64,000 nucleotides of DNA. Source: Parapedobacter defluvii. Its GTDB lineage: Bacteria > Bacteroidota > Bacteroidia > Sphingobacteriales > Sphingobacteriaceae. Location: contig NZ_BMIK01000006.1 of NCBI RefSeq assembly GCF_014642075.1, positions 62,677 to 126,676 on the forward strand. The letters run 5' to 3'. The notes under the pieces were generated by a model. That model saw only the letters and a program-made list of their open reading frames with translations. It did no database searches and had not been told where the DNA came from. Made by a program: the position numbers and the translations under genes. Positions 56,844-60,712 of the stretch are shown here, in pieces. The number at the start of each line of letters is the position of its first letter. Position 1 is the first letter of the stretch.

Positions 56844-56958
56844 CGAAGATTCGCATTTAGAATGCGCTCGATAAAAAGTGAAATTTTTTTGAAATGTTTT
56901 AAGGGTTCGTTCGTCTATAGATACAAAGGATTGGAAAATCGTCTCACATACGTGGAAA

Positions 56959-57507
56959 ATGACTAATGAAAAGCAAGGAAAAATAACGGCAACCGTCGCC
57001 TCACACAAGAAGGGGTTGCTCGGCTTCATTAGGAAACATGTAAGCAACGATGCCGACGCGGAAGATATTCTGCAGGATGTATGGTACCAACTGAGTGCAG
57101 TGATCAATACGCGGCCGGTGGAGCAATTGGGAGCTTGGTTGTACCGCGTTGCAAAAAACCGGATCATTGACAAGAGGCGTAAGAAGTCCGAATCTACCTG
57201 GAACCACCTGGCAGATGAGGACAGTGAGGAACAGCAATTCGGCAAATTCACGCCGGTGGCCGACGACAATCCGGAGACTGCTTTTCAGGAACGCATGGCT
57301 TGGCAGCAGTTATGGCGGGCGTTGGAAGAGCTTCCGCCTGCGCAAAAGAATGTATTTATCTGGCACGAGTTAGAACACCTGTCTTTCGCAGAGATCGCTG
57401 AAGTTACCGGTGAGCCAGTGGGTAAACTCATTTCCCGAAAGCATTATGCGGTATTGCACCTGAGGAAACGGCTGAAAATCTTTTATGATGAATTAATGGT
57501 AAAATAA
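56959..57507 (+). CDS. ECF-type RNA polymerase sigma factor
   Basis: 182 residues of the sigma-70 ECF class: region 2 includes DAEDILQDVWYQL (33-45) and GAWLYRVAKNRIIDKRRK (58-75), and region 4 is about 120-172 with LPPAQKNVFIWHELEHLSFAEIAEVTG. No regions 1.1 or 3. The recognition helix (VGKLISRKHYAVLHL) has an unusual composition. Two small genes follow at once, the second overlapping the first, and neither resembles a known anti-sigma factor. The target promoter is unknown; CGTCTATA at 56912-56919 hints at autoregulation. Confidence 0.9.
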   Translation: MTNEKQGKITATVASHKKGLLGFIRKHVSNDADAEDILQDVWYQLSAVINTRPVEQLGAWLYRVAKNRIIDKRRKKSESTWNHLADEDSEEQQFGKFTPVADDNPETAFQERMAWQQLWRALEELPPAQKNVFIWHELEHLSFAEIAEVTGEPVGKLISRKHYAVLHLRKRLKIFYDELMVK

Positions 57508-57530
57508 CGAGTAAGTTAACAAAGAAAAAC

Positions 57531-57944
57531 ATGAAAAAATTATTTAGAAGTAGAATACGGTTTATTTTTATTCCCATTCTAGCCATTGGCTTCCTCTTTT
57601 TGGTAAGCTTTGCGGTGATGCATCTTTGGAATTACACATTACCGGCGCTGTTTGGGGTTAAGGCCATCAACCTGTGGCAGTCGATGGCCTTATTCTTCCT
57701 CTGTAAGTTGCTGTTCGGCTTCGGGGGCGGAGGTCCGAGGCGTGGCGGTCCGCAATGGAGCAAAAGGGCCATGCGCAGGAAATTTGCCCAAATGGACGTA
57801 GCGGACAAAGCGCGGTTCAACGCCTACATGCAGCGGGATTGGTGCCGGTGGGAGTCTTGGGGAGAACCGGTTAACACAGGTGCAGATCCAAATCGTAACG
57901 ACGGAGACCAACACCAACATGAAGAGAAAGGACACAGGCAATGA
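57531..57944 (+). CDS. Two-TM membrane protein in an ECF sigma operon
   Basis: 137 residues: a basic N-terminus, two membrane segments (about 10-32 and 44-62), a glycine-rich hinge (GFGGGGPRRGGPQ) and a basic cytoplasmic or periplasmic tail with a helical patch (SKRAMRRKFAQMDVADKARFNAYMQRDW). It ends with a His/Asp/Gln-rich stretch. Similar small proteins with two TM segments, a Gly-rich hinge and an Arg-rich helical tail are often next to ECF sigma genes in Bacteroidota, from memory. It starts 23 nt after the sigma stop and overlaps the next gene by 4 nt. An anti-sigma role is possible but unproven. Confidence 0.78.
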   Translation: MKKLFRSRIRFIFIPILAIGFLFLVSFAVMHLWNYTLPALFGVKAINLWQSMALFFLCKLLFGFGGGGPRRGGPQWSKRAMRRKFAQMDVADKARFNAYMQRDWCRWESWGEPVNTGADPNRNDGDQHQHEEKGHRQ

Positions 57945-58165
57945 CAGATATCTTCATTTACAAAACCAATGTAAGCACGCCGGTGCACGTCAGGCAAGTC
58001 GAGCTACTTTTTGAACGTATGGTGTCGATCAAGCATTGGACGTTTGACTTGGAAGACTGCGATAAGATTCTACGGATAGAGGCCATTGGCCTCCAACCGG
58101 AAACAGTGGCACTTCTATTGGAAGAGGCAGGGATTTTCTGCGAACCACTGGAATACGAGCTATAG
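57941..58165 (+). CDS. HMA-like small protein without the metal-binding Cys pair
   Basis: 74 residues with a ferredoxin-like beta-alpha-beta-beta-alpha-beta pattern resembling heavy-metal-associated domains (FIYKTNVSTPVHVRQVELLFERM, then KHWTFDLEDCDKILRIEAIG, ending GIFCEPL). The MxCxxC metal site of HMA proteins is absent: the first loop reads TNVSTPVHV. The remaining two Cys are in other positions. It is coupled by an ATGA overlap to the two-TM gene. Possibly an interaction domain instead of a copper chaperone. Confidence 0.72.
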   Translation: MTDIFIYKTNVSTPVHVRQVELLFERMVSIKHWTFDLEDCDKILRIEAIGLQPETVALLLEEAGIFCEPLEYEL

Positions 58166-58193
58166 AAAAGTTTCGGTTAGGTATCCCATTGTA

Positions 58194-58224
58194 TTGCATA
58201 TAAAAGTAACTTTAGCTAAGTTTG
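58194..58224 (+). promoter_or_regulatory. Promoter of the serine hydrolase gene
   Basis: TTG (58194-58196), a 20-nt spacer and TAAGTTTG (58217-58224) match the Bacteroidota consensus. The ATG at 58248 is 23 nt downstream of the box. Confidence 0.68.
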
Positions 58225-58247
58225 ATCCGCTAATGTATTCCTAACTT

Positions 58248-59540
58248 ATGCAGATGAAATCCTTTTTGACCTTTCTGCTTGTCACATCGGCATTGATGCT
58301 TGGTGCGCAGACTCCTTCAATCCAAAAATCCGCACCGCTTACGGAAGCAAATCCCACCCGTGTAGGCGTCTCTCCAAATCGATTAAATCGGATAGACGAA
58401 ATGTTGCAGCAGGCCGTGTCCGGCGGGCAGATTCCGGGTGTCGTTGCATTGATTGCGCGGAAAGGCAAAATAGTATATTACAAAGCTTTCGGTACGGCGG
58501 ATGCTAACACCGGCCGGCCACAGAAAAGAGACGATATTTTCCGGATTGCATCCCAGACAAAAGCGATAACGGCAACGGCAGTCATGATGCTCTGGGAAGA
58601 AGGGAAATTCCAGTTAGACGACCCCGTCTCTAAATACATTCCGGAATTCAAAAACCCACAGGTGTTGCAGTCCTTCCACTATGCAGATACGAGTTACACG
58701 ACCCGCCCTGCTAGCAGGGAAATTACCATCAGGCATCTGCTTACCCATACATCAGGGCTTGGATATGGCGTCATTGATGGCGATGAACGGATGAAAATGA
58801 TCTATGAAAAAGCAGGGACAACCGATCTGTTCAGTACCAGTGATGTGTCCATTGGCAGCGTGGTGAAAAAGCTGGCTAAATTGCCGCTTCACCACGATCC
58901 GGGCGAAAAATTCACCTACAGCATGGGACAAGATGTGCTGGGATACTTTGTTGAAGTAATTTCAGGTCTTCCCTTTGACCGTTTTCTGCGGGAACGTTTA
59001 TTTGATCCGTTGGGAATGGACGATACCTGGTTTTACCTGCCCGATGAAAAGGCGAACCGCCTAGTGGCCATTCAGCATAAAAAAGAAGATAAATGGGCAA
59101 ACTATCCGCACACATTTTACGATCCTGATTACCCCATTACGGGTGCACGTAAATTCTTTTCCGGCGGGGGTGGTCTTTCCAGCACAGCGAAAGATTACGC
59201 GACATTTCTGCAGATGTATCTCAATGGCGGTGAACTCAATGGCGTGAGAATCCTTAGCCGGACAACGATCGCCAGCCTGATGGCCAATCAGGTCGGCGAG
59301 TTGATGGGTACTGATCAATACTATGGGCTGGCATTTGGTGTGCTGACCGGCCAAGGGGCGATGAAAGGCGGACAAGGAAGCGAAGGGACATTTACCTGGG
59401 GCGGATATTTTAATACCCAATATTTTGCCGACCCCAAAGAGCAAACCATCGGCATCCTGATGAAGCAGACGCAGGGCCCGGTAGACGACCAAACCGCCTG
59501 GAAGTTCAGGCAACTTATCGTAACGGCCATCGATGATTGA
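58248..59540 (+). CDS. Exported serine hydrolase, beta-lactamase class C / esterase family
   Basis: 430 residues with a signal peptide (about 1-20, ending MLGAQ). SQTK at 102-105 supplies the nucleophile Ser and general-base Lys. The second motif is YSM (224-226), where class C enzymes have YSN. The LLTHTSGLGYG segment is diagnostic of the family. Many Bacteroidota copies are esterases, transesterases or D,D-peptidases rather than true beta-lactamases, and the YSM variant argues against a dedicated beta-lactamase. A second ATG two codons later is equally possible as start. Confidence 0.9.
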   Translation: MQMKSFLTFLLVTSALMLGAQTPSIQKSAPLTEANPTRVGVSPNRLNRIDEMLQQAVSGGQIPGVVALIARKGKIVYYKAFGTADANTGRPQKRDDIFRIASQTKAITATAVMMLWEEGKFQLDDPVSKYIPEFKNPQVLQSFHYADTSYTTRPASREITIRHLLTHTSGLGYGVIDGDERMKMIYEKAGTTDLFSTSDVSIGSVVKKLAKLPLHHDPGEKFTYSMGQDVLGYFVEVISGLPFDRFLRERLFDPLGMDDTWFYLPDEKANRLVAIQHKKEDKWANYPHTFYDPDYPITGARKFFSGGGGLSSTAKDYATFLQMYLNGGELNGVRILSRTTIASLMANQVGELMGTDQYYGLAFGVLTGQGAMKGGQGSEGTFTWGGYFNTQYFADPKEQTIGILMKQTQGPVDDQTAWKFRQLIVTAIDD

Positions 59541-59566
59541 TGGATAAGAAATATTGCTTACCTTTG
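59537..59566 (+). promoter_or_regulatory. Promoter of the small membrane protein and exonuclease genes
   Basis: TTG (59537-59539), which lies at the end of the serine hydrolase coding sequence, a 19-nt spacer and TACCTTTG (59559-59566). The ATG at 59574 is 7 nt after the box, so the leader is at most a few bases. Confidence 0.62.
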
Positions 59567-59573
59567 CCAGACA

Positions 59574-59705
59574 ATGGAAAGCCAACAACCGGAAAAAGAA
59601 GAATATACCTTCTGGACAAGGTATAAGCGTTTTGCTGGAAATGAAATACTGCTTTATGTGATTATGGCAATTGGTATTCTATTGGGGATTGTAGTATTTA
59701 GTTAA
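59574..59705 (+). CDS. 43-residue single-pass membrane protein
   Basis: A short frame from ATG to TAA: a charged N-terminal half (ESQQPEKEEYTFWTRYKRF) followed by one membrane segment (about residues 25-42, LLYVIMAIGILLGIVVF). Its own promoter box lies 7 nt upstream and the exonuclease gene begins 8 bp after the stop, so transcription and translation context both favour a real gene. I do not recognise the family. The segment after GN could span the inner membrane with the charged half in the cytoplasm. Confidence 0.6.
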   Translation: MESQQPEKEEYTFWTRYKRFAGNEILLYVIMAIGILLGIVVFS

Positions 59706-59713
59706 CAGAAAAC

Positions 59714-60712
59714 ATGAACCTCAAATTGAAACGCCCGTTGGCTTTTTTTGATCTGGAGACAACCGGCGTGAATATCTCTGCAGACCGGATCGTTGAAATT
59801 TCTATCCTGAAGATTTCTCCGGAAGGTGAGGAAGCCGTCAGAACCCTGAAAATCAATCCTGAAATTCCCATTCCATTGGAGTCATCGATGTTCCACGGGA
59901 TTTACGACGACGACATCAAAGAGGCACCTACCTTCAAAGCCGTTGCCAATGAATTGGCTTCCTTCATCGGGGATGCGGATTTAGCAGGTTATAATTCAAA
60001 TAAGTTCGATATCCCGATGCTGATGGAGGAATTTATCCGAGCAGGTGTAGATTTTTCGCTGGATGGCCGCCATTTTGTCGATGTACAGAATATTTTCCAT
60101 CAGATGGAACAACGCACGCTGAAAGCTGCCTACCGTTTTTATTGCGAGAAAGATCTCGATAATGCTCATAGTGCGGAGCATGACGTCCGGGCAACCTATG
60201 AAGTGTTGAAATCTCAACTGGACCGCTATGAAAATATGGAATGGGAGGATAAGTTGGGCAACAAATGTGTTCCGGTTATCAATGACGTTGAGGCGCTGCA
60301 CCAGTTCACCAACCTGAGTCGCCCGGTAGACTTTGCCGGAAGAATGGTATTCAATGAACAGGGGGAAGAAATATTTAACTTCGGAAAGCATAAAGGGCGC
60401 GCAGTTGAAGAGGTATTTACGATCGAGCCCAGCTATTATTCGTGGATGATGCAGGGTGACTTTCCTTTATACACGAAAAAGTGCCTTGATAAAGTATGGC
60501 AGCGGTTCCGTTCCAAACAGAAAGAACAGCGGCAGACCCAAAAAGAGCCTTCTGTCCGTGATACGCCTCCCACAGCCTCCTCACATCCAAACAGAGAAAG
60601 GCGGCCCGATAAAGATAAACATCACCACCATCCGCAATCCCGTACAAAACAAAAACCCGGCCCCATAACGGATGATATGCTGAAAAATCTACAGGCTAAG
60701 TTTGGGAAATGA
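59714..60712 (+). CDS. 3'-5' exonuclease, DEDDh type (DnaQ-like), with charged C-terminal tail
   Basis: 332 residues. The exonuclease domain (about 8-170) has all five acidic/His positions: Asp13 and Glu15 in FFDLETTG, Asp99 in NKFDIPML, then His152 and Asp157 in HSAEHD. A small domain with FNFGKHKGR (about 225-270, DUF3820-like) follows, then a Lys/Arg/His/Pro-rich tail likely to be disordered. It may act in DNA repair or RNA processing, but it is not fused to a polymerase or a GIY-YIG nuclease. It is cotranscribed with the 43-residue membrane protein. Confidence 0.88.
   Translation: MNLKLKRPLAFFDLETTGVNISADRIVEISILKISPEGEEAVRTLKINPEIPIPLESSMFHGIYDDDIKEAPTFKAVANELASFIGDADLAGYNSNKFDIPMLMEEFIRAGVDFSLDGRHFVDVQNIFHQMEQRTLKAAYRFYCEKDLDNAHSAEHDVRATYEVLKSQLDRYENMEWEDKLGNKCVPVINDVEALHQFTNLSRPVDFAGRMVFNEQGEEIFNFGKHKGRAVEEVFTIEPSYYSWMMQGDFPLYTKKCLDKVWQRFRSKQKEQRQTQKEPSVRDTPPTASSHPNRERRPDKDKHHHHPQSRTKQKPGPITDDMLKNLQAKFGK

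Follow-up and report, generated by a model that had tools for sequence, protein, structure and literature searches.

A predicted membrane-hairpin protein as the probable anti-sigma factor of one clade of ECF sigma factors in Bacteroidota and Pseudomonadota

CnrY of Cupriavidus metallidurans is a class II anti-sigma factor: its anti-sigma stretch is N-terminal, it has one transmembrane (TM) segment and its partner is the periplasmic sensor CnrX. In Bacteroidota, the Dma anti-sigma factors carry their anti-sigma domain at the N-terminus, followed by a single TM helix, a long disordered tether and a beta-barrel, as described in PMC13088901. PMC7406223 presents a short cytosolic two-helix stretch of CnrY as contacting both sigma4 and sigma2 of the ECF sigma factor CnrH, attributes to known anti-sigma factors a dual interface covering sigma2 and sigma4, and reports a class I neighbour beside only 6% of Bacteroidetes ECF sigma factors. 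The rarity of class I neighbours raises the question of how most Bacteroidota ECF sigma factors are controlled, and the protein family described below is a concrete candidate for the holder of such a sigma factor.

The window analysed here is a stretch of 64,000 nucleotides from Parapedobacter defluvii (contig NZ_BMIK01000006.1). Three of its genes follow one another on the + strand: an ECF sigma factor gene of 182 aa (56959..57507), a gene for a 137-aa protein with two TM segments, here called the two-TM protein and probably a membrane-anchored anti-sigma factor (57531..57944), and a gene for a 74-aa HMA-like protein without CxxC (57941..58165). A first-pass annotation made from the letters of the window had described this trio, and the open reading frames confirm its coordinates and shared strand, the 23-nt gap between the sigma and two-TM genes and the 4-nt overlap between the two-TM and HMA-like genes. 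The sigma factor, identified from its reading frame, its domain matches and its clade, matches Pfam Sigma70_r2 (PF04542, 4.6e-12) and Sigma70_r4_2 (PF08281, 5.1e-11), and exceeds the cut-off of the NCBIfam model TIGR02937 (2.1e-23). It has sigma2 and sigma4, lacks sigma3 and measures about 180 aa, as expected of an ECF sigma factor. The association of the three genes goes beyond chance, since the two-TM gene with an adjoining HMA-like gene is present in seven of the nine genomes of the window's genus and the two-TM gene is missing from the other two (G002 and G008).

In one of these two genomes, G002, the whole unit looks to have been lost. At the corresponding place (L203:1500-1901) the trio is gone and an intact-looking sigma promoter element is left as a scar; within about 200 nt of it come a small TM ORF and then an exonuclease-type gene, the order found 3' of the trio in L002 and L003. 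In the window, the trio is separated from the exonuclease-type gene by a gene that by eye resembles a serine hydrolase or beta-lactamase (58248-59540), and a motif search of positions 58000-60000 gave no match to the short TM ORF found at that place in L002 and L003.

The two-TM gene was found by profile search in 73 of 296 Bacteroidia genomes and in 62 of 392 genomes of the phylum, the latter count including one weak false match (L446 in G621). A tblastn search with the two-TM protein of the window reached relatives on Pantoea plasmids, and a search with the Pantoea protein reached others on plasmids of Pseudomonas, Caballeronia, Burkholderia and Paraburkholderia. Once identical sequences were discarded, 229 distinct proteins were left. 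A sigma gene adjoins the two-TM gene on the same strand in 226 of them, lying upstream in 220 cases (sigma ORF ending within about 400 nt of the two-TM gene) and downstream in six; as for the remaining three, L019 and L282 are cut by contig ends and L446 is the weak false match. The HMA-like gene lies within 700 nt downstream of the two-TM gene in 109 of the 229. When neighbours were clustered over 80 named loci, the sigma and two-TM genes were the only same-strand families present in at least half of them; this clustering used stretches of at least 100 codons, in which the HMA-like gene could not show up.

Gene order is not uniform. It is reversed on the Pantoea plasmids, where the two-TM gene stands ahead of the sigma gene, while in the three Burkholderiaceae plasmid loci that were read the sigma gene comes first, with a ferredoxin-type gene after the pair in two of them (L225, L226). 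A plasmid of Pseudomonas silvicola (L224) carries a degenerate pair whose promoter motif is still recognisable (matrix score 19.9). For a tree, 52 of the 226 linked sigma factors were set against 29 further ECF sigma factors from the window genome, which has 77 region-4 matches, 30 of them fetched. All the sampled sigma factors linked to a two-TM gene fall on one side of a branch with an SH-aLRT of 98 and form one clade relative to the others; the Pantoea sigma factor groups with three Bacteroidota loci of like gene order, and those of Burkholderiaceae nest among Bacteroidota. The ECF sigma factor and the two-TM protein are the core of the trio, and the pair occurs in two phyla, Bacteroidota and Pseudomonadota, being carried in the latter by Pantoea and by Burkholderiaceae plasmids.

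The two-TM protein has no Pfam match at E<=1 and no NCBIfam match. The first-pass annotation had noted that the locus encodes no classic anti-sigma factor; in agreement with this, a class I anti-sigma domain was not among the Pfam matches (E<=1) of the 16 members examined, namely the two-TM protein and 15 relatives, and no solved structure matched the family with an E below 0.4. A CnrX-like reading of the tail was considered and set aside, Metal_resist matches being present in 5 of the 16 members with a best E of only 0.069.

By eye and from the model, TM helix 1 spans approximately residues 11-32 (57561..57626, + strand) and is followed by W33-N34, and TM helix 2 spans approximately residues 47-63 (57669..57719, + strand), with conserved Q50 and K59. 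A predicted cytoplasmic tail, residues 66-110 (57726..57860, + strand), contains a basic Gly-rich hinge, two predicted helices and C105; the hinge, which reads GFGGGGPRRGG, and the basic tail are both present, as had been annotated. Charge and conservation figures cover the 190 of 225 two-TM proteins that could be parsed. A linker of some 17 residues, including W33-N34 (about 100%) and Q50 (91%), connects the TM helices, position 59 is K or R in 95% and a tail cysteine occurs in about 91%, all these values being weighted. The mean number of K and R residues is 4.1 in the 12 or so N-terminal residues, 0.24 between the helices and 6.9 in the first 30 residues of the tail. This concentration of positive charge at the N-terminus and in the tail, with hardly any between the helices, suggests that both ends are cytoplasmic and that the protein has almost no periplasmic part. 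An AlphaFold model of low confidence (pLDDT 66.5, pTM 0.32) contains helices only, with tail helices at residues 75-86 and 90-104.

A mean-field coupling analysis was applied to 225 pairs of sigma factor and two-TM protein, equivalent to 149 effective pairs at 80% identity, with L224 excluded. Thirteen of the 20 strongest inter-protein couplings fall in the tail, against 4 to 11 in 14 permutations. For the tail, the mean of its 20 strongest couplings to the sigma factor is 1.037, and none of 24 permutations made within tighter clusters goes above 0.925, whereas the coupling strength for the rest of the two-TM protein, 0.955, was attained by 2 of 24 within-cluster permutations. A narrower definition of the tail left 12 pairs among the top 20, a count matched by 2 of 24 permutations, and the single best coupling, 1.35, was exceeded in 2 of 14. 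With domain borders taken from the Pfam matches, the top-20 tail couplings mostly pair with residues of sigma2 or sigma4. It is the cytoplasmic tail, and not the membrane part, whose coevolution with the sigma factor exceeds that of permuted pairings, which also disrupt some shared ancestry.

Because its linkage to the sigma factor is constant and the coevolution is confined to the tail, the two-TM protein is most likely a membrane-anchored anti-sigma factor that lies outside Pfam. The same two lines of evidence, constant linkage in two phyla and a coevolution signal only in the tail, make probable the first-pass proposal that this tail could hold the sigma factor. Conversely, the two-TM protein could be a membrane-tethered activator or a co-regulated passenger while the sigma factor is controlled at transcription, as its lack of a known anti-sigma domain would allow and as PMC8999054 assumes for certain ECF groups in which no anti-sigma factor is recognised. 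We regard this as improbable: the two-TM gene was never found apart from a sigma gene, contig ends excepted, the coevolution signal is concentrated in its cytoplasmic tail, and a positively autoregulated operon would presumably need a brake.

An ECF-type promoter element of the operon, TTTGAAATGTTTT-N10-TCGTCTA, is located 41 nt ahead of the sigma start codon (56888..56917, + strand). The best candidate of this type has an identical spacing upstream of 99 sigma genes out of 109 in a non-redundant set. In its exact form, the core GAAATGTT-N13-CGTCTA has one copy in the window genome; each of the seven trio-bearing genomes of the genus has it once, upstream of the trio, and it occurs once in G002, where it is the scar mentioned above. 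A weight matrix was made from sigma upstream regions only, and among 1.39 million shuffled positions one exceeds a score of 16 and three exceed 14. The sigma gene is a candidate for autoregulation through this conserved promoter-like element; against this, a similar promoter might be read by a different ECF sigma factor encoded in the genome. In Parapedobacter, a search allowing at most one mismatch returned 21 sites against 25 for a backward control; there is no enrichment, and no further target of a wider regulon in this genus can be claimed.

The third protein of the trio has no Pfam match at E<=1, and NCBIfam gives only an unrelated match (E 0.077). Its AlphaFold model is a beta-alpha-beta-beta-alpha-beta fold (pLDDT 90.8, pTM 0.79), which Foldseek matches to HMA domains of copper chaperones and ATPases with a probability of 1.00 and a best E of 1.2e-3, none of the matches having an E at or below 1e-3. 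The model aligns to the HMA domains of CCS and ATP7B with Z up to 11.0 over 68-71 residues, and the MxCxxC loop of those domains is replaced by KTNVSTP, CxxC being absent; an HMA-type fold without MxCxxC is what the first-pass annotation had recognised. None of 75 trio members matches the HMA family PF00403 at E<=1. Profile comparison links the HMA-like family to four CxxC proteins (hhalign probability 98.4). Three of the four match PF00403, one only at the cut-off, and these three adjoin P-type-ATPase-like ORFs (by eye). The HMA-like protein is probably descended from copper-chaperone-type domains and, in the model, keeps their ferredoxin-like HMA fold.

The metal site of this domain had been called lost in the first pass. 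That is correct for CxxC and goes too far for the protein as a whole, in which two candidate ligands remain: C67, at the start of beta4 (codon 58139..58141, + strand), in 86 of 88 trio members, and C40, within DCD in the beta2-beta3 loop (codon 58058..58060, + strand), in 84 of 88. T9, C40, D41, R45 and C67 are invariant in an alignment of 75 HMA-like members (A4), and T9, D36, D39, D41, R45, G64 and C67 in a chosen, further-reaching set of 18 HMA-like proteins. By the geometry of ferredoxin-like folds, C40 with its aspartates and C67 would lie at the metal-binding end of an HMA domain, and the metal site may have moved rather than vanished. Some relatives have S, A, V, I, R or E in place of C40, and the two cysteines are not strictly retained or lost jointly. 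The idea of C40 and C67 as a fixed disulfide or metal pair is weakened, as a few distant members among the 88 lose one or both and several of the g13 proteins discussed below have DSD or DAD instead of DCD.

Genus g13, which belongs to the same family as the window's genus, separates the HMA-like gene from the pair. The gene is missing from most sigma operons of this genus, and 9 of the 12 g13 genomes with a two-TM gene have an unlinked HMA-like gene preceded by the promoter element, situated 25-57 nt ahead of the coding region with matrix scores of 25-33. In G370 the HMA-like gene is beside the two-TM gene, i.e. in the operon, and in G362 and G366, which possess the two-TM gene (the contig of G366 being truncated), no HMA-like gene with the element was found. 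In g13 genomes without a two-TM gene, 0 of 36 HMA-like or HMA copies reach a score of 14; these copies come from eight genomes, a ninth such genome having no copy, and their top score, 12.3, belongs to a site overlapping the start (L463). Two further g13 genomes, G192 and G327, have element scores of 31.9 and 25.3. Outside this genus, weaker sites (14.9 and 10.7) lie 23-25 nt upstream in two genomes from a different family, and the element is missing from the HMA-like paralogues examined in the majority of the other pair-bearing families. The scan covered one or two matches per genome, then the remaining g13 matches and 13 further matches from genomes of the class. A raw pattern search in g13 found 37 sites against 50 in the backward control. 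Since raw sites are not enriched, the g13 case rests on placement, on matrix score and on the split by presence of the pair; being built on matrix score and pair presence, the association is independent of raw site counts.

Because the HMA-like gene is unlinked in g13 yet keeps a sigma-type promoter, it would be a product of the regulon, and the HMA-like protein looks like an output of the sigma factor and not its partner. An HMA domain without its metal motif would in this case be tied by promoter to one sigma factor, in and outside the operon. The first-pass proposal that a former metal-binding domain had become a partner domain in sigma control runs against both the linkage in only 109 of 229 loci and the unlinked, promoter-bearing genes of g13; on the same evidence an obligatory partnership with the sigma factor was rejected as the main reading. 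This proposal, or a feedback version of it, in which the HMA-like protein belongs to the control circuit and modulates release by binding either the sigma factor or the tail of the two-TM protein, appears unlikely. It would account for the frequent neighbourhood with the pair, for the conserved surface that the fold has at its metal end and for the sigma-type promoter kept even by unlinked genes, as expected of a feedback regulator, but the pair persists without an adjoining HMA-like gene in the remaining loci, and 29 of 60 class genomes picked for a two-TM gene without an operon HMA-like gene have no HMA-like match at E<=0.001. Furthermore, in other lineages the slot is filled by unrelated genes encoding Hsp20, small membrane proteins or ferredoxin.

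Candidate outputs other than the HMA-like gene were encountered in several lineages. In genus g14, 54 sites were found against 17 in the control, and 23 of 26 genomes have sites, many of them at the sigma gene; 30 of the 54 sites were fetched as loci. Some of these precede an apparent ABC exporter (L229, L249), an apparent metallophosphoesterase-type membrane protein (L251, L256) or an apparent ribose-5-phosphate isomerase (L254, L257), all named by eye. Another operon, encoding small membrane proteins, likewise has the element upstream and continues in several cases with Hsp20, whose identity is confirmed by Pfam (2.2e-17, 1.4e-14). In a second operon with the sigma motif in g13 genomes (L456:3604-5017, L262, L265, L270), the motif is followed by two small proteins, one with one TM segment and one His/Cys-rich, then by a protein of 126-130 aa and, where the stretch reaches that far, by a His-rich Hsp20. 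Within the fetched stretches, an Hsp20 gene lies downstream of 13 of 226 pairs and never alongside a linked HMA-like gene. Second copies of the pair in g14 (L099, L450 and L451, in G021, G332 and G350) and the only copy of G351 (L449) are followed by Hsp20, and in L449 and L451 a sigma motif stands immediately 5' of the Hsp20 gene.

The element is found as well ahead of the ferredoxin-first operon of L105 and ahead of the two-TM genes of L110, L427 and Pantoea. Ferredoxin-type genes of the 4Fe-4S kind adjoin the pair in L105 and L110, from one Bacteroidota family, and on the Burkholderiaceae plasmids L225 and L226, that of L225 being assigned by Pfam. In the fetched stretches, matrix sites scoring above 15.5 also occur before ORFs whose link to the system is unclear or absent, for example in L086, L094, L133, L219 and L236.

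The operon is, in our opinion, probably a self-activating ECF sigma/anti-sigma switch that includes a single output gene of its own. In the resting state, the two-TM protein would form a hairpin in the inner membrane with its N- and C-terminus in the cytoplasm, and its two-helix tail would clamp the sigma factor across sigma2 and sigma4. Since the protein has almost no periplasmic part to feel a signal, sensing would take place within the membrane or in the cytoplasmic tail, which usually carries a cysteine, and the tail would loosen; membrane stress, the signal suggested in the first-pass annotation, is a candidate. The freed sigma factor would then transcribe its own operon from TTTRAAATGTTTT-N10-TCGTCT-type promoters, giving rise to more sigma factor, to more two-TM protein, which would later end the response, and to the HMA-like protein; it would drive this effector wherever the gene sits. 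The conserved end of the effector, with C67, usually C40 and three aspartates, may bind metal, a thiol or a partner protein.

A refinement of this switch would make it respond to metal or thiol stress. It is possible, if somewhat doubtful, that the tail cysteine senses a soft metal or oxidants and that the HMA-like, ferredoxin and Cys/His-rich products deal with that metal or oxidant. In favour are the wide occurrence of the tail cysteine among the parsed proteins and the recurrence, among neighbours or outputs, of HMA-descended proteins, 4Fe-4S ferredoxins, His-rich Hsp20 and Cys/His-rich small proteins. On the other hand, one Pantoea member lacks the tail cysteine, C40 is replaced in several g13 outputs, and the exporter, metallophosphoesterase-type and isomerase ORFs behind the g14 sites, as named by eye, are not metal genes.

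With or without this refinement, the two-TM family most likely works like an ECF/anti-sigma system. Its partner is constant, the promoter element is conserved and the predicted regulon is small, all of which could be tested in culturable soil bacteria. No paper on the sigma/two-TM pair was found in the open-access literature, and the sigma group may be listed in the ECF reclassification (Casas-Pastor 2021). A broader proposal, which we put forward tentatively as a real possibility, is that two-TM proteins constitute a further structural class of anti-sigma factor, spread over Bacteroidota and Pseudomonadota: a hairpin without a periplasmic sensor, reading the state of the membrane or of the cytoplasmic thiols, would be fitted with a C-terminal two-helix clamp and would drive a swappable output slot, occupied in this lineage by an HMA protein remodelled to carry a new cysteine site.

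How this system resembles and departs from those already described can be stated feature by feature. The HMA-like protein shares its predicted fold with HMA metallochaperones and ATPase domains (PF00403; CCS domain 1, ATP7B) and has profile kinship to CxxC proteins; unlike PF00403 domains, it is devoid of CxxC and has C67, usually C40, and D36, D39, D41 and R45. As with the class I anti-sigma factors RseA, RsiW and ChrR, the gene of the putative inhibitor adjoins the sigma gene and a dual interface is predicted, but the two-TM protein and its 15 relatives show no class I domain in Pfam. Like Dma1/Dma2-Das of Bacteroides thetaiotaomicron, the system would comprise Bacteroidota anti-sigma factors adjoining ECF sigma genes; unlike Dma, the two-TM protein has 137 aa, two TM segments and, in its low-confidence model, helices only, with neither tether nor beta-barrel. 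By the features tested, the two-TM family is neither a class I nor a Dma anti-sigma factor. A class II affinity with CnrH-CnrY is possible, in view of the two tail helices of the low-confidence model and of the couplings to both sigma2 and sigma4. The family is set apart from CnrY by description, its stretch being C-terminal and placed behind a two-helix membrane hairpin.
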